Positions 28,518 through 38,639 of a DNA stretch of 42,825 nucleotides are shown here, piece by piece. The notes under the pieces are model-generated. The model was not told the origin of the DNA. It was given only the letters and a program-made list of their open reading frames with translations, and made no database searches. Origin of the DNA: Prevotella sp. Lineage in GTDB: Bacteria > Bacteroidota > Bacteroidia > Bacteroidales > Bacteroidaceae. Position 1 is the first letter of the stretch. Each line of letters starts with the position of its first letter. The position numbers and the translations under genes are program-made. The stretch lies in NCBI GenBank assembly GCA_017483185.1, contig JAFULM010000057.1:1-42825 (forward strand). Direction: 5' to 3'.

Positions 28518-30842
28518 ATGACACTGCTGACAATCATCCTTTTGCTACTGGCCGTGGTTCCGGCATACTCGCAACCGGCCAATCCCATCATCCTCGATGC
28601 CTATTCCGCCGACCCCTCGGCCCATGTCTTCGGCGACACACTGTGGGTCTATCCCAGCCACGACAGGGACGACGCCGTCTCGTTCTCGATGGAGGACTAT
28701 CATGCTTACAGCACCACCGACATGGTGACGTGGCGCGATCATGGCGTCATCTTCAACCCGCTCCGCCAGACCTCATGGGCGAAGAGCGCGGCGTGGGCCC
28801 CCGACTGCGTCTTCCGCAACGGCCGCTACTACCTCTATTATCCCACCGACAAGCGGCACATCGGCGTGGCCGTGAGCGACACGCCCTACGGACCGTTCCA
28901 CGACCCGCTCGGCCGGCCGCTCCTTTCGATAGACTCTCCCGGTGTGGTGTGCGACAGAGACTTCATCGACCCCGCCGTCTTCATCGACGACGACGGCCAG
29001 GCCTACCTCTTTGTCGGGCAGAACACCGTCTGCTGCGTCCGGTTGAATGACGACATGGTGTCCTACGACGGCACGGTGCACATCGTCGAGGGCGTCAGAG
29101 ACTTCTTTGAAGCCGTGTGGGTCCACAAGCGCGACGGCATCTATTACATGTCCTATTCCGACGGTCCTTTCCACGGTCACGAGCCGCGCATAGCCTATTG
29201 CACCGCCACGTCACCTCTGGGCCCATATACATACAGGGGCGTCATACTCGACCCGGTCAACAGCGGCACCAACCATCATTCCATCGTCAACTACCGCGGT
29301 CAGGACTATCTCTTCTACCATACGGCCGACATCTCGCGCCACCTCGCACCCGACTACCACTGCGGCGTGCGCCGTTCGGTCTGCGTCGACTCGCTCTTCT
29401 ACAATCCCGACGGCACCATACGCAAGGTGCGTCCCACGCTCGATGCGTCGCGGCTCAGCCTTGACGGCATCGACGACAGGCGCAAGGCGTCACTCATCGC
29501 CGGCAGCGTCAGGCAGCCGTCGATAGCCAAACGCACGTTCATGTTTGACCCGAAACATGCCGACTCGAAGCTGCCGCTTCGCCGCCATCTGCAGACACTC
29601 GTCGACAGCGTCTCTGCCGTGGGCGGAGGCACGGTCGTGGTGCCGGCGGGCGACCACTTCATGGACGGACCGCTGGAGCTGAAGAGCGGCGTGCGTCTTC
29701 ATCTGAAGGACGGCGCCGTGTTGCGGTTCACGTCGGAGCCCGACGCCTATCTGCCCGTGGTGCTCACGCGCTGGGAAGGTACGGAAGTCTATGGCCGTTC
29801 GTCGATGATCCGCGCCTGCGGACAGACTGACGTCGCCGTGACCGGCGAGGGTTCGGCCACCATCGACTGCGGTGGCGCGGTGATGGCGCGGTGGGGCATG
29901 CCGACAGATGTGGACGAGTTTGAGGAAAACATCCACGGCACCCACGGCGAGACACCGGAGATGCCGGACGTCCGTCGGCTGCGGCAGATGGGCGACGACC
30001 TGACGCCGGTGGCCGACCGCGTGTTCGGCGAGGGCACCCGGCTGCGCCCCTGCGGCATCGAGTTCAACGCCTGCCGCCGCGTGCTCATCGACGGCATACG
30101 GCTGAAGGACAGTCCCTTCTGGTGCATCCATCCGCTCTATTGCGAGGATGTGACGGTCCGCCGCGTCACCATCGACTCCCATTTCCCCAACAACGACGGC
30201 TGCGACCCCGAGTCGAGCCGCCGCGTGCTCATCGAGGACTGCACCTTCCGCACCGGCGACGATGCCGTGGCCATCAAGTCCGGACGTGACGCCGACGGCC
30301 GGCGTGTGGGCCGCCCGTCAGAGGATATCGTCATCCGCCGCTGCCGTTTCTTCAGCCGGTGCAACGGACTGTGCATCGGGTCGGAGATGTCCGGCGGCGT
30401 CAGCGGTGTCTATATGACCGACATCGAGGTGGGTGACGTCAAGAACGCCCTGCTCTTCAAGTCCAATCTCGACCGCGGCGGCTATATAGAAGATGTGTTT
30501 GTCGACTCCATCACCATCGGCGATGTGGCCGGCGCCGTGCTGCGTTTTGAGACCAACTATTTTGGCTATCGCGGCGGCAACCATCCCGCACGCTATTCCG
30601 ACTTCCGCATCAGCAACGTCTCGGCACGTTCCTCCGCGGCCTATGCCATCTATTTCGACGGCAACGAGGCCGAACCCATCCGTGACATCCGTGTCCGCAA
30701 CTTCTCCGTGGCCGACGCGCCCCATCCCCACTATCTCTTCCACACCCGCCGCTGCACGTTCGAGGACTGCACCGTCGGCGGCGCCGTGTTGCCGGTGACG
30801 CTGCCGGAGAGCGCCGCGAGACAGCAGTGCGACGTGTGGTGA
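28518..30842 (+). CDS. Secreted GH43-GH28 fusion, probable pectin-degrading enzyme
   Basis: The 774-residue protein has a signal peptide of about 18 residues (cleavage after AYS). Residues 20-320 form a GH43 five-blade propeller with the acid triad Asp32 (YSADPSAH), Asp151 (FIDPAVFID) and Glu198 (FFEAVW). Residues about 335-765 form a GH28 beta-helix with NNDGCDPESS (Asp560) and TGDDAVAIKSG (Asp581, Asp582), followed by CIGSEMSGG. GH43 enzymes cut arabinose, xylose or galactose side chains; GH28 enzymes cut galacturonan, so the pair could trim and open one pectin region. No sorting tail is visible at the C terminus. It shares a neighbourhood with a pectate lyase. Exact substrates are inferred. 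Confidence 0.87.
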   Translation: MTLLTIILLLLAVVPAYSQPANPIILDAYSADPSAHVFGDTLWVYPSHDRDDAVSFSMEDYHAYSTTDMVTWRDHGVIFNPLRQTSWAKSAAWAPDCVFRNGRYYLYYPTDKRHIGVAVSDTPYGPFHDPLGRPLLSIDSPGVVCDRDFIDPAVFIDDDGQAYLFVGQNTVCCVRLNDDMVSYDGTVHIVEGVRDFFEAVWVHKRDGIYYMSYSDGPFHGHEPRIAYCTATSPLGPYTYRGVILDPVNSGTNHHSIVNYRGQDYLFYHTADISRHLAPDYHCGVRRSVCVDSLFYNPDGTIRKVRPTLDASRLSLDGIDDRRKASLIAGSVRQPSIAKRTFMFDPKHADSKLPLRRHLQTLVDSVSAVGGGTVVVPAGDHFMDGPLELKSGVRLHLKDGAVLRFTSEPDAYLPVVLTRWEGTEVYGRSSMIRACGQTDVAVTGEGSATIDCGGAVMARWGMPTDVDEFEENIHGTHGETPEMPDVRRLRQMGDDLTPVADRVFGEGTRLRPCGIEFNACRRVLIDGIRLKDSPFWCIHPLYCEDVTVRRVTIDSHFPNNDGCDPESSRRVLIEDCTFRTGDDAVAIKSGRDADGRRVGRPSEDIVIRRCRFFSRCNGLCIGSEMSGGVSGVYMTDIEVGDVKNALLFKSNLDRGGYIEDVFVDSITIGDVAGAVLRFETNYFGYRGGNHPARYSDFRISNVSARSSAAYAIYFDGNEAEPIRDIRVRNFSVADAPHPHYLFHTRRCTFEDCTVGGAVLPVTLPESAARQQCDVW

Positions 30843-32882: not shown

Positions 32883-32913
32883 TTTGTTCGTATGGATATT
32901 TGCACTATATTTG
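32883..32913 (+). promoter_or_regulatory. Bacteroidetes promoter for the surface protein gene
   Basis: TTTG (32883-32886), a 19-nt spacer and TATATTTG (32906-32913) precede the start codon by 40 nt. The sequence resembles the promoter at 16604, sharing TTTTGTTTTGTTC and ATTTGCACTAT. Confidence 0.8.
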
Positions 32914-32953: not shown

Positions 32954-35272
32954 ATGAAACAACTCTACATGTTTAAGTCCCTCTTGATCGCCTGCATCAT
33001 GATGCTTTTCGGGGGGGGTAATTTTGCGTTTGCGCAAAATTTGAAGACAATTGAGTCTAATTTTATAGACAAGAACTTAACTGTTGGTGAGGGTGAATTA
33101 AGTTGGACAGCATCCATTAGTGCTAATTCTTTCGAAGGAAGTAGCCCTAATAGAGGTGTGCAGTTCGGTGCAGCTAAAGGCAAATTTACATTGACGTCAA
33201 ATAAAGATATAGCCAATGTAACTAAAATAGAAATAACAGGTTCAACAAATGATACTGGCAAGAAAAATACGATCAGTATAAAAGTAGGTAATACAACTTT
33301 CTCCCCTAACTCAATTTCTTTAGAAAAAGTGAATAATACTATTTGGGCTTTTGAAGGTGATGGAAGCGGAACTATTGTAATAAGTTGTAATGACGTCCAA
33401 AAATCTATCTATTTCAAAAAGATAGTCGTTACATATTCCGATAAAAATAATCAGGAATTCTATTTTCCCACTTCTGAGGCTACGGCAATAATAGGTGAGG
33501 ATTTTACTGCCCCCGAACTGACAAACACTTATGAAGATAAAAATGTCACTTATTCGAGTTCTGTAGAAACCGTTGCTACTGTTGACGCAGAGGGTAAAGT
33601 TAGTCCACTGAGCGTAGGAACAACGGTAATCACAGCAACGCTTGCATCTGACAATACAGTTACGGCTTCATACACTCTGACAGTGAAAGAAGCCGGACTC
33701 AAGACCATGACCTTGTCCATAGACCCTGCGGCCGGAACATATCCTGCGGCACAAACAGTTACGTTGACATCTTCTTTTGATGGTGCCAAGATATATTATA
33801 CGACAGACGACACAGAACCGACAACAGAATCCGCAGAATATACGGCTGCTATTCCTGTCACAATCAGCGGAACAACAGTCAAGGCTCTCGCAGTAGCCGA
33901 AGGTTATGATAATGCGACAACAGAAGCCGCATACACCATCAAGCCCGATCAGCCTGCGTTCAGCGAAGAGTCAAAAACATTTAAGGATCCATTGGCCGTG
34001 ACGCTGACCTTGCCCGAAACTGCTTCAGCCGGTGCTAAGATTCACTATGCGATAGGTGGAACTGCAACGGCAGAATCAGACGTTTACGACGGAACGCCAA
34101 TCACAATTAGCGGCGAGAATGACGGCGACAAGATTATTCTTCATGCAGTAGTGGTCGATGAATACGGCAATGTGGGCATGGAGAAGTTTTGCACTTATAC
34201 ATATTCAGATGCCATCGTCTTTGACTTTACGGCAAATCCGAATGTGTGGGGTATTGAGCCTACAAGCAATAATAGTGTAAGTAATACAGACGGTAAGGAA
34301 CTTGAAGTCGCTGGTGTTGTGCTGACGACAACATCAGGATCGGGATCAAAGACTTGTATATGGAATACTCCAGAACTCCGCATGTATTCAGGTAGTACAA
34401 TAACGTTTACAGCTCCTGTCAATTATGAGATTGTTTCTGTGGCGTTTACCGGTGCTAAAGGCACACTTAAAGAAACAGGCACGACTACAAATATTTCTGC
34501 CAATGGTGGTCTGTGGACGGGCAATAAAGAGAGTGTTACGTTTGAAAATGTTGCCAATAGCCAAATCAAGACTATATCCGTTACTCTGAAAGAAATGCCA
34601 GCCCCCACCACCGGCACCTTCACCTTTGTCGCTCAGGATGCTGATGGCAACTATTACGCTACGTTCAGCACTGACCATTATATCGTATTCCCGGAGGAAG
34701 TTGAGCTTTCCGCGGTGAACGGCATCAATGAAGACGGAACTTTGCATTACTTTGTTAAAAGACTTGAGACAATGACTGTTACTGACGAAGTGGGCTCAGT
34801 GAAGGGTAGTCTCGTTCCGAAAAACACCGGTGTGCTGCTGAAAAGTTCGAAAGCCGAAGTAACCTACTATTTCCCCACGAGCAATATTACTGGAAGCATT
34901 AATAGCTGGTTTAAGCCGGTAACGAATGAGGACGGAACGTTCGAGGGTCGCGAAGGCTACAAATATTATAAGTTGGCATACAACGACTATGAGGCAAAGA
35001 CAGGACTCGGATTCTATTGGGGTGCGGAAAATGGTGCGCCGTTTAAGTCGAAGAAGGGTCTGGCATATCTCGAAATTCCGGAAACGACAACTTCCGGAGC
35101 TGCTCCGACACACTTCCTCATCGGCGGCGGCACGGACGGCATCAGCAATGTCGAGAGCGACGTGAAGGCTGACAAGGACGGCGTCATCTACAACATAGCC
35201 GGACAGCGCGTCAACGCAGCCACAAAGCCCGGACTCTACATCATCGGCGGCAAGAAAGTCGTTGTCAAATAA
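32954..35272 (+). CDS. Large secreted surface protein with Ig-like and chitobiase-C domains; poly-G tract
   Basis: The 772-residue protein has a signal peptide ending GGGNFAFAQ. The first part (about 30-165) is beta-rich and unassigned. A BIG2-like domain follows (about 168-250, DAEGKVSPLSVGTTVITATL). Two chitobiase/hexosaminidase C-terminal-type domains come next (about 255-335, GAKIYYTTDDTEPTTESAEY; and 338-420). Two further beta regions precede a C-terminal tail, VIYNIAGQRVNAATKPG then LYIIGGKKVVVK, which resembles Bacteroidetes surface-sorting ends. No catalytic domain is recognised. Codons 20-22 contain eight consecutive G. The first 1.7 kb is clearly richer in A and T than its neighbours, hinting at a separate origin. 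Confidence 0.8.
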   Translation: MKQLYMFKSLLIACIMMLFGGGNFAFAQNLKTIESNFIDKNLTVGEGELSWTASISANSFEGSSPNRGVQFGAAKGKFTLTSNKDIANVTKIEITGSTNDTGKKNTISIKVGNTTFSPNSISLEKVNNTIWAFEGDGSGTIVISCNDVQKSIYFKKIVVTYSDKNNQEFYFPTSEATAIIGEDFTAPELTNTYEDKNVTYSSSVETVATVDAEGKVSPLSVGTTVITATLASDNTVTASYTLTVKEAGLKTMTLSIDPAAGTYPAAQTVTLTSSFDGAKIYYTTDDTEPTTESAEYTAAIPVTISGTTVKALAVAEGYDNATTEAAYTIKPDQPAFSEESKTFKDPLAVTLTLPETASAGAKIHYAIGGTATAESDVYDGTPITISGENDGDKIILHAVVVDEYGNVGMEKFCTYTYSDAIVFDFTANPNVWGIEPTSNNSVSNTDGKELEVAGVVLTTTSGSGSKTCIWNTPELRMYSGSTITFTAPVNYEIVSVAFTGAKGTLKETGTTTNISANGGLWTGNKESVTFENVANSQIKTISVTLKEMPAPTTGTFTFVAQDADGNYYATFSTDHYIVFPEEVELSAVNGINEDGTLHYFVKRLETMTVTDEVGSVKGSLVPKNTGVLLKSSKAEVTYYFPTSNITGSINSWFKPVTNEDGTFEGREGYKYYKLAYNDYEAKTGLGFYWGAENGAPFKSKKGLAYLEIPETTTSGAAPTHFLIGGGTDGISNVESDVKADKDGVIYNIAGQRVNAATKPGLYIIGGKKVVVK

Positions 35273-35859: not shown

Positions 35860-36216
35860 ATGAAAAGATTACCTATCTTATTGTCCTCTCTCCTCATAGG
35901 CGCGGCCGCTTCATGGGCAGACATGGGACAGACCGTCACCATCGACGGAACGGTGGTCGCCAAGTTCGCCACCGGACTGACCTTTGACGGCGACAACGTC
36001 ATTCTCTCCTTTGAGGACGGTACGAGCCAGACAGCAGACATGTCGCTCGTCTCCATCGACCTGACATACGATGCCTCGGCCATCACAGAAGTCACGACCG
36101 GCAGTGAGGCCGCAACGCGCGTCTACACCATCGGCGGCCAGTATGTCGGAACGACGACGGAAGGACTGCCCGGCGGACTCTATATCGTCAACGGAAAGAA
36201 AACAATAATCCACTAA
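35860..36216 (+). CDS. Small secreted protein with GLYIVNGKK tail
   Basis: The 118 residues run from MKRLPILLSSLLIGAAASWA (signal peptide); the longer frame from 35800 would bury the signal and is rejected. The mature part is a short beta-rich domain (TVTIDGTVVAKFATGLTFDG, DNVILSFEDGTSQTADMSLV). It ends YTIGGQYVGTTTEG then LPGGLYIVNGKKTIIH, the same kind of tail as the 772-residue surface protein. The function is unknown. Its stop touches the first ATG of the pectate lyase frame, so the two are cotranscribed. Confidence 0.7.
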   Translation: MKRLPILLSSLLIGAAASWADMGQTVTIDGTVVAKFATGLTFDGDNVILSFEDGTSQTADMSLVSIDLTYDASAITEVTTGSEAATRVYTIGGQYVGTTTEGLPGGLYIVNGKKTIIH

Positions 36217-36236
36217 TGCAGAAAGGAAACACGAGA

Positions 36237-38639
36237 ATGAAGAAGTTTACACATTATTATATATATAGCATCCTCGCGTCAGTGATGATGCTCTCGGCCG
36301 CCACGGCCACAGCCCAGACATGGGACTTCTCGTCTGTCAGCGCCACCGACAAGACCAACCTTGCCGCCGACGCCGCCGGCTGGACACACGAATCGTCATC
36401 GAGCAACGACCGCTATAAGAACGTCGGGACGTATGACGTCGAGCCGCTCAAGGCCAACGGTGCCGAACTGGAGTTCACCCGGGGTATGCTCTTCACCATC
36501 ACGGCGGCCGACGCCGTGCGTGTTGACATCAAGGGCAAGCGCATGGCGATGAACAAGGCGCTGACCATCACACTCAAGGACCTTAAGGCCGGCGACAAGC
36601 TGACCATGAAGTGCAAGACGTCGAAGTCGGGCACGGCACGCGGCGTCAATGTCACCAACCTCACGGCGGAGAGCGGTTCGTTCAACTCGACTTCCGCCGA
36701 CGACCAGACCAACGTGGCCACTGTCACGGCCGACGGTGACGTCACGCTGACCAACACGGGCGGACTCTATGTCTACGCCATCAGCGTCACTGACCCCTCG
36801 GGCGGCGGCGACACGCCGGTTCCGGGCGGCGACGACCACTCGACGACGCTCAATACGACGCGCAGTCAGGCCCAGCTGACGACGGCCGGCAACGTCATCA
36901 AATACTACAACACGGCCGACGTGGCCGGCATAGCCATCGACCGCGCAGCCGGAACGGTCACCGTGACACCTAAGTCGGGCGACTGGACGGATGTCTTCAC
37001 ACGCTCGGTGAGCAACATCGCCTTCTCCAAAGCGTCGCAGACGGGCGGCGGCTCGGACATCGAAAACGCCGGAGTGGTCATCACCCGCGCCGAAGGATGG
37101 AACGAGTCTGTATATGCCGAGTGGCAACTGCTCGACGGAGCGACATCATATAAAGTATATGTCAAGGGCGGAAAGCACGCCGACTGGACGGCCGTCGACC
37201 GCGAACTCGTCCGTAACTACGGCACCTACGGGCGTGTCGATGTGGTCGGTCTGACGGCTGCGGCAGACTACGCGCTGAAGGTTGTGCCTGTCATCGGCGG
37301 CACAGAGGATGAGACGAAGGCCAGCACGGCGTCGGGAATGACCGTCAGGAGCTATGACCGCTCGGGCTTCGCACACTTCAACAACAGCGGTGTTGGAGCA
37401 TACGAGGACGACGGAACGCTCAAGGCCACGGCCCGCGTGATATACGTTACGGCCCAAACGGCAAAGACGGTGACGCTCGATGTCGTCACCAGTTCAAATG
37501 GAAGTACAACCGAATTTACCGGTTTGCAGGCCATTATCAACGCTTATCAGAAAGGACTGGAGACCCGTCCGCTTGCCATCCGCATCGTCGGAACCATCCG
37601 CGACACGGACATGGATTCGTTCGGAAGTTCAGCCGAGGGTCTGCAGGTGAAGGGAAAGAACAACACGACGCCGATGAACATCACCATCGAGGGTGTCGGT
37701 GAGGATGCCGCCATCTGGGGCTTCGGCATGCTGTTGCGCAATGCGGTGAGCGTCGAGTTGCGCAACTTCGCCGTCATGCTTTGTATGGACGATTGCATCT
37801 CGCTCGATACGGACAACAAGTATTGCTGGGTTCACCATATCGACCTCATGTACGGTAATACCGGTGGCGACAGCGACCAGGCAAAGGGCGACGGCTCGGT
37901 TGACATCAAGAGCGACTCGCAGTATATCACCGTGGCCTACTGCCACTTCCTCGACTGCGGAAAGACGTCGCTCTGCGGTATGAAGAGCGAGTCCGGACCT
38001 AACTATATCGACTACCATCACAACTGGTTTAACCATAGCGATTCGCGTCATCCGCGTGTCCGCACGATGACCGTGCACGTCTGGAACAACTACTATGACG
38101 GTTGCGCCAAGTACGGCGTGGGTGCAACGATGGGCTCGAGCGTATTTGTGGAGAACAACTATTTCCGCGGAACGAAGGACCCGATGATGATCTCTCAGCA
38201 GGGAACGGACGGCAAGGGCGACGGCACTTTCTCGGGAGAGGCCGGCGGTATGATAAAGAGCTACGGCAACGTGTACGCCGAGAAGGGCGCAAGCAGCAAC
38301 TATACCGTTATCACCCATCATGAGAGCGCTACCGATTTCGACTGCTATGAGGCTGCCACACGCGATGAGCAGGTGCCTTCCGCATATAAGGCTCTCGTGG
38401 GCGGAACGACTTACAACAACTTCGACACCGACCCGTCGCTCATCTACAACTATACTCCCGCCGCCGCGACGGACGTTCCCGCTGTCGTGACAGGCTACTG
38501 GGGAGCCGGCCGTCTGAACAAGGGTGACTTCCACTGGACATTCAACAACGCCCTCGATGACACCGACTATTCCGTCATCACGGAGATGAAGAACGCTCTG
38601 AAGAACTACCAGAGCAAGCTCGTGGGCATTTTTGAATGA
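36237..38639 (+). CDS. Secreted pectate lyase, polysaccharide lyase family 1
   Basis: The start at 36237 (MKKFTHYYIYSILASVMMLS) has AGAAAGGAAAC upstream; an ATG at 36216 would add seven residues. The 800-residue protein has a signal peptide to about TATAQ, and an N-terminal beta region to about 195 that may be a carbohydrate-binding module. A linker rich in Gly/Pro (SGGGDTPVPGGDDH) and a fibronectin-III-like segment (about 270-375) follow. The PL1 beta-helix covers about 400-790, with DDCISLDTDNKYCWVHHIDL, DYHHNWFNHSDSRHPRVR (Arg607/Arg609, the catalytic Arg region) and NNYYDGCAKYG. It cleaves polygalacturonate by beta-elimination. It complements the GH43-GH28 enzyme. Confidence 0.9.
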   Translation: MKKFTHYYIYSILASVMMLSAATATAQTWDFSSVSATDKTNLAADAAGWTHESSSSNDRYKNVGTYDVEPLKANGAELEFTRGMLFTITAADAVRVDIKGKRMAMNKALTITLKDLKAGDKLTMKCKTSKSGTARGVNVTNLTAESGSFNSTSADDQTNVATVTADGDVTLTNTGGLYVYAISVTDPSGGGDTPVPGGDDHSTTLNTTRSQAQLTTAGNVIKYYNTADVAGIAIDRAAGTVTVTPKSGDWTDVFTRSVSNIAFSKASQTGGGSDIENAGVVITRAEGWNESVYAEWQLLDGATSYKVYVKGGKHADWTAVDRELVRNYGTYGRVDVVGLTAAADYALKVVPVIGGTEDETKASTASGMTVRSYDRSGFAHFNNSGVGAYEDDGTLKATARVIYVTAQTAKTVTLDVVTSSNGSTTEFTGLQAIINAYQKGLETRPLAIRIVGTIRDTDMDSFGSSAEGLQVKGKNNTTPMNITIEGVGEDAAIWGFGMLLRNAVSVELRNFAVMLCMDDCISLDTDNKYCWVHHIDLMYGNTGGDSDQAKGDGSVDIKSDSQYITVAYCHFLDCGKTSLCGMKSESGPNYIDYHHNWFNHSDSRHPRVRTMTVHVWNNYYDGCAKYGVGATMGSSVFVENNYFRGTKDPMMISQQGTDGKGDGTFSGEAGGMIKSYGNVYAEKGASSNYTVITHHESATDFDCYEAATRDEQVPSAYKALVGGTTYNNFDTDPSLIYNYTPAAATDVPAVVTGYWGAGRLNKGDFHWTFNNALDDTDYSVITEMKNALKNYQSKLVGIFE

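Follow-up and report, generated by a model that had tools for sequence, protein, structure and literature searches.

A G8 tract in the signal-peptide codons of a Prevotella gene as a probable phase-variation switch, and similar designs in the genus and family

Introduction

Does a run of eight guanines near the start of a predicted surface-protein gene of Prevotella act as a genetic on/off switch? The locus that raises this question lies in a 42.8-kb stretch of DNA that was analysed over its whole length (hereafter, the window). The window corresponds to contig C44 in a draft assembly of 61 contigs and 2.47 Mb (completeness 74.7%). A first-pass annotation had placed the run (G8) at positions 33011–33018, in codons 20–22 of a 772-residue protein and followed by TAAT, a description that agrees with the sequence and the open reading frame, and had read it as a probable phase-variable switch. 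That reading is supported by comparison with a second gene of the same genome, a relative in another genome, a census of similar genes and a pair of SusC alleles, and from it we infer switching within the window strain itself. Taken together, the evidence makes it very probable that the tract functions as a contingency locus. A broader claim appears reasonably probable when taken as a whole, namely, that Prevotella and its family possess a general signal-peptide contingency design, in which G runs close the hydrophobic core, directly ahead of the signal-peptidase site. Such runs would have arisen or spread on several occasions among surface adhesins and SusC nutrient receptors, in some cases as a 5' segment common to otherwise unrelated bodies, and would provide enzyme-free on/off switching in a group described as switching by DNA inversion.

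The window gene and its reading frames

The gene is 772 codons in length (positions 32954–35272, plus strand) and, based on its open reading frame from the ATG at 32954 and on Pfam matches, is predicted to encode a secreted surface-type protein. Upstream of it, TATATTTG at 32906–32913 on the same strand is a candidate −7 promoter box, identified by its fit to TAnnTTTG, which we take to be the Bacteroidetes −7 promoter consensus. The gene start reads MKQLYMFKSLLIACIMMLF-GGG-NFAFA-Q and looks like a Sec signal peptide that occupies codons 1–27 (32954–33034, plus strand), judged by the score of its hydrophobic stretch and, by inspection, by an AxA-like cleavage site, A-F-A before Gln28. The proposed slipping switch, the G8 tract (33011–33018, plus strand), follows a C at 33010, and codons 20–23 read GGG GGG GGT AAT. 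The poly-G thus falls in signal-peptide codons, a mechanistic likeness only to the gonococcal pilC genes discussed below.

The remainder of the protein, also encoded on the plus strand, contains a Big_2 Ig-like domain (aa 184–232; 33503–33649) and a CHB_HEX_C_1 domain (aa 258–320; 33725–33913) overlapped by Fn3_assoc at aa 269–320. These three were the only Pfam matches at E ≤0.1, and no PilC homology was found among them. The C-terminal region (aa 550–772; 34601–35269) is common to the second gene of the genome and to the relative described below; by eye, it is like a short secretion or anchor tail, and it may serve as an anchor. Its resemblance to a T9SS sorting domain was likewise noted by eye alone, and no T9SS C-terminal sorting-domain model in Pfam or NCBIfam matched the protein at E ≤0.1. 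Neighbouring genes include those of a GH43/GH28 protein (28518–30839) and a pectate lyase (36216–38636). The surface location of this and the other tract-bearing proteins is a prediction.

In the proposed mechanism, slipped-strand mispairing during replication would add or remove a base in the G run. When the tract has eight G, the body follows in the frame of the start codon and the full secreted protein would be made; the signal peptide, including its glycines, would then be removed from it at A-F-A|Q. The mature protein should be unchanged by in-frame changes in tract length because the run, judging from its position, sits in the part that is cleaved off. One-base slips have the consequences that the first-pass annotation had foreseen: with nine G, TAA follows at once and the start frame ends after 22 aa, and with seven G, a stop codon is reached about eight codons past the tract and the start frame ends after 29 aa. 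Either one-base change of this homopolymer inside the reading frame therefore ends translation early, and the surface protein would be absent. We infer the slippage, its rate and its reversibility, as well as expression of the gene and a protein-level off state, while the benefit would presumably lie in phage, immune or nutrient-niche variation.

Chance and the setting of the run

By itself, the G run does not exceed what chance would give. The window contains three G7 words, compared with 4.54 expected from shuffles, and the draft genome contains 24 distinct runs of G8 or longer (21 if repeated contig stretches are counted once). Furthermore, G runs beside short C runs can form hairpin stems, which are an additional source of chance matches. 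It is the place of the run that does exceed chance. GGG is the rarest glycine codon (33 of 749, or 4.4%, in 23 hand-picked window ORFs), and the expectation by codon use for three glycines written as GGG GGG GGT is 0.0004. Among 398 genus genomes, the pattern ATGAAR-N{36,63}-TTY-G7+ returned 40 rows, 37 of which were read. Six of eight exact-G8 matches combined a hydrophobic start with at least 450 codons of body, and one of the 23 exact-G7 matches did so (Fisher p 0.00025). If the two genes of the window genome itself are left aside, the comparison is four of six against one of 23 (p 0.003), or against two of 23 if one borderline G7 case is added (p 0.008). This preference for eight over seven is not what simple run-length decay would give.

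These figures bear on a simpler account, in which the run is an ordinary, length-stable glycine stretch and the out-of-frame copies described below are homopolymer sequencing or assembly errors. The window copy is in frame and G8 is not rare in its genome, as such an account would have it; however, both the rarity of GGG among glycine codons and the favouring of G8 over G7 behind such starts argue against it.

Relatives of the window gene

The window genome carries a second gene of this kind on contig C60 (L065), which starts MKQFCLLKLFLINFMLIFFGGG and has a G8 at codons 20–22, the same codons as in the window gene. Its start frame ends after 25 aa, and its body is open for 1,389 codons in another frame. 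Its product shares 45% identity with the window protein across 229 aa of the C-terminal part, and Big_2 matches occur in three stretches of it. Within one genome, therefore, two copies with equal tract length (G8) differ in state, the window copy being in frame and the C60 copy out of frame. An out-of-frame copy could instead be a dead gene in decay, unable to switch, and, as assembled, the full protein cannot be made from the start codon of such copies; nevertheless, the C60 body continues to the conserved C-terminus.

A relative in another genome (G128; L128) encodes 821 aa and has an in-frame G8. It is 76% identical to the window gene over the first 28 codons, ungapped (67% for the 57 bases that precede the tract), and 74% identical, with gaps, over the last 500 bases, while the C-terminal 225 aa are 52% identical. 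Five 150-base stretches past the signal peptide gave 51–64%, like shuffled DNA (mean 62%). By these identities, the relative keeps the start and the C-terminus of the window gene, not its middle. There was no sign of a common promoter of the two genes, the upstream identity of 73% falling within that of shuffles (up to 75.7%). A GTDB scan for the tract with its right flank found six stretches, of which only that in the G128 relative has a signal-peptide context, and the exact flank is therefore not a shared motif. Nine stretches in viral contigs fit a peptide pattern, none of which encodes a relative, and a protein search together with tract-pattern searches of the 398 genus genomes found no near-identical allele of the window gene.

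A census in the genus and family

A wider pattern, ATGAAR-N{36,63}-TN-G8, had matches in 69 of 398 genus genomes and 31 of 301 family genomes, with the window genome included in both sets and 22 of the family set belonging to the genus. The design is sparse, only part of the matches in those 69 genomes being such genes. Pattern rows numbered 87 in the genus and 40 in the family, compared with 15 and 22 for a reversed-pattern control, and outside the genus the excess is weak. The genus pattern gave 81 distinct matches, from which two (G162 C1:1504646 and G019 C36, neither signal-peptide-like by eye) were left out. The family pattern contributed 28 new loci and 11 stretches picked by eye (eight longer pieces of those loci and three new), with four matches left out (G539 C43, G503 C7, G489 C80 and G466 C132), and one locus (L035) entered through a protein search rather than the pattern.

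The collected loci contained 144 distinct tracts of G8 or longer, 51 of which follow a signal-peptide-like stretch, and 36 of these precede a body of at least 450 codons. One candidate (L181) was removed because its body looks like mid-SusC, which left 35 genes. The counts depend on an MK start, a tract of G8 or longer and a simple hydrophobicity rule that was loosened once, from a 9-residue mean of 2.0 (25 loci, 18 in frame and seven out) to the final 8-residue mean of 2.0, which admitted L177.

The 35 genes, with signal-peptide-like starts, tracts of G8–G14 and bodies of at least 450 codons, comprise 23 in frame and 12 out of frame, all of these states coming from single assemblies, one genome per species and mostly many-contig drafts in which homopolymer errors are possible. 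Both frame states hence exist with long open bodies, the long body being a condition of the count, and the 12 out-of-frame bodies are open over 461–1,576 codons, partly by construction. The excess of in-frame over out-of-frame states was counted against the switch reading. Because at least 450 codons were required, decayed out-of-frame genes went uncounted: 15 of the 51 signal-peptide-like starts have shorter bodies and were left out (nine in frame, six out), and the six out-of-frame cases, which may be decayed or non-genes, are compatible with gene death.

Tract lengths in the 35 genes are eight in 20 cases, nine in 12, and 11, 12 and 14 in one case each. Miscounts in draft assemblies could occur at any single locus, including the G077 allele described below, and the account by a stable glycine stretch draws on this; it fits poorly with 12 of 35 genes out of frame and tract lengths of up to 14, and with the codon and G8 preferences also against it, we regard it as unlikely. 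The tracts begin at codons 16–22, a range partly set by the search pattern. In 27 of the 35, a loose regular expression that also takes some implausible sites found a peptidase-like site no more than 13 residues past the tract, which suggests that most of the runs are placed just ahead of the signal-peptidase site. Nine of the genes are from outside the genus, representing seven genera by their printed labels (five in frame, four out). A Pfam scan of all 35 bodies identified seven of the SusC/TonB-receptor type and nine without a match at the threshold used. The others contain Big_2/Big_3, LRR, InlB-type repeat, BACON, fn3, Ig or dockerin domains, apart from one TPR protein (L242) that is less surely a surface protein. 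Two candidate allele pairs from these loci, L168/L167 and L245/L247, were rejected, their starts being similar and their bodies only 29% and 31% identical.

SusC alleles that differ by one base in the tract

A difference in tract length between near-identical alleles was seen for a SusC member of the census, which has G8 and is in frame in G274 (L160, C84) and has G9 and is out of frame in G077 (L159, C24). The aligned region of 5,801 bp is 99.88% identical, with six substitutions and a single indel, the latter being one tract G. At two other places, G274 is 88% and 88–91% identical to G077, and 94–95% to G038; therefore, the SusC region was evidently exchanged recently between two species. 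Since that exchange, the sole length change fell on the tract, or one of the assemblies miscounts the G run.

A third version, found in G038, has a T run next to its G8 and is likewise out of frame. Here the body matches TIGR04056 to the model end (profile positions 17–981 of 981) and, compared with G274, gives a dN of 0.023 and a dS of 0.388 (dN/dS 0.059). A complete body of this kind, a G077 allele with just one indel relative to its in-frame counterpart, and the extended C60 body make it very unlikely that the out-of-frame copies are simply dead genes. A fourth SusC gene, in G108, shares 76% identity across the query; with its G8, start and body are in frame over the 635 codons that the locus covers. 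A search for the SusC 5' end in 338 genus genomes gave ten matches, four of them over the whole query.

The allele pair also bears on a role of the run at the RNA level. Homopolymers can promote polymerase or ribosome slippage, and transcriptional slippage or programmed frameshifting on G8 would produce a fixed leak of both frames without heritable switching. An added effect of this type is compatible with the DNA data, but it leaves natural alleles of eight and nine G in otherwise nearly identical DNA unexplained, and as the function of the run it is extremely unlikely. Slippage in the DNA, with heritable switching, remains the reading that we prefer.

Relation to known phase-variable systems

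The mechanism is known, as in Neisseria gonorrhoeae pilC, and the phylum is new to such switches as far as our literature searches show. According to the available text of one source, homo-guanine tracts in the signal-peptide region of pilC mediate on/off frameshifting (PMC5354566), while the accessible part of another holds no statement found on the pilC tract (PMC7593972). The likeness to the window gene, as far as that text goes, is poly-G in the signal-peptide codons of a surface or adhesion gene. In contrast to pilC, the genes described here belong to another phylum and to unrelated proteins (SusC receptors and Ig-like, LRR and InlB-repeat proteins of one bacterial family), and they are known from DNA sequence alone, whereas pilC switches in the gonococcus.

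Poly-G contingency loci within genes include meningococcal hmbR/hpuAB and Campylobacter jejuni cgtB (PMC3786947; PMC6437147). They resemble the present design in that one-base slips of poly-G in the reading frame switch translation, and differ in genes and phyla; the census tracts begin at codons 16–22, partly as set by the pattern. For cgtB, a population of cells with eight or nine G was observed (PMC6437147), and tracts of such size can therefore vary. A study of Akkermansia muciniphila describes G runs (G8) in genes proposed to mediate phase variation (PMC3048395); this gut commensal likewise has G8 in genes, and phase variation is a prediction there too, although it belongs to another phylum and capsule-synthesis genes are named there.

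Bacteroides and other Bacteroidales are described, in the text available from two reviews, as switching by DNA inversion, with SusC/SusD included (PMC11868660; PMC12632263). The main text of the former never mentions 'Prevotella', and neither 'slipped' nor 'homopolymer' appears in the latter. Random on/off expression of SusC-type outer-membrane receptors, as reported in the available text for Bacteroides fragilis SusC/SusD, is common to both systems, but it is driven there by an invertase and here would require a one-base slip without a dedicated enzyme. No report of homopolymer switching in Prevotella or other Bacteroidota was recognised, by title or start of abstract, among the matches listed for the open-licence literature.

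If the general design holds, surface variation in host-associated bacteria of this genus and family would include a layer hidden by assemblies, which show just one state of it, and what is assembled as a 'pseudogene' may be a gene in its off position. There would be consequences for strain behaviour, phage sensitivity and gene calling, SusC receptors and adhesins being plausible phage receptors, antigens and nutrient gates.

Other G runs in the window genome and in the family

Several further runs were noted. In the window genome (G000), a G8 lies near codon 22 of a 906-codon ORF on contig C19 (L072, 3701–3708), with an identical stretch on C56 (L081). By eye, the tail of this ORF is like that of the window protein, and its start is unlike an ordinary signal peptide; a Pfam scan of it gave no match. 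C19 and C56 are identical over ~3 kb, and a repeat between C11 and C58 was judged by identical printed contexts around G runs; either pair may reflect assembly redundancy or real duplication. A G13 run on the minus strand of C60 (L064; 23576–23588) has no long ORF around it. Elsewhere, one contig (L173; G189 C132) ends seven bases past a G9 in a signal-peptide-like start, as it might where reads disagree on tract length. In L209, a signal-peptide-like start is directly followed by a G9, with a 168-codon body out of frame, and, in another genus of the family, a G14 precedes a 1,086-codon TonB-receptor body, also out of frame (L249).

Other runs lie close to putative promoters. In other Bacteroidaceae genomes (L125 and L126), TTC-G8/G10-TAATTTTGC occurs outside any signal-peptide frame, and TAATTTTG within it also fits what we take to be the TAnnTTTG box. 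In the window genome, two intergenic runs on the minus strand, both with the flanks TC-G-TAAA, stand upstream of such boxes: a G8 on C59 (L063, 1294–1301), at a distance of 19 bases, and a G9 on C33 (L074, 3760–3768; C33:18759–18767), at 26 bases. The genes that follow these boxes were named by eye as a thioredoxin-like secreted protein and a small HTH-like gene, respectively, and the two runs are possible promoter-spacing switches.
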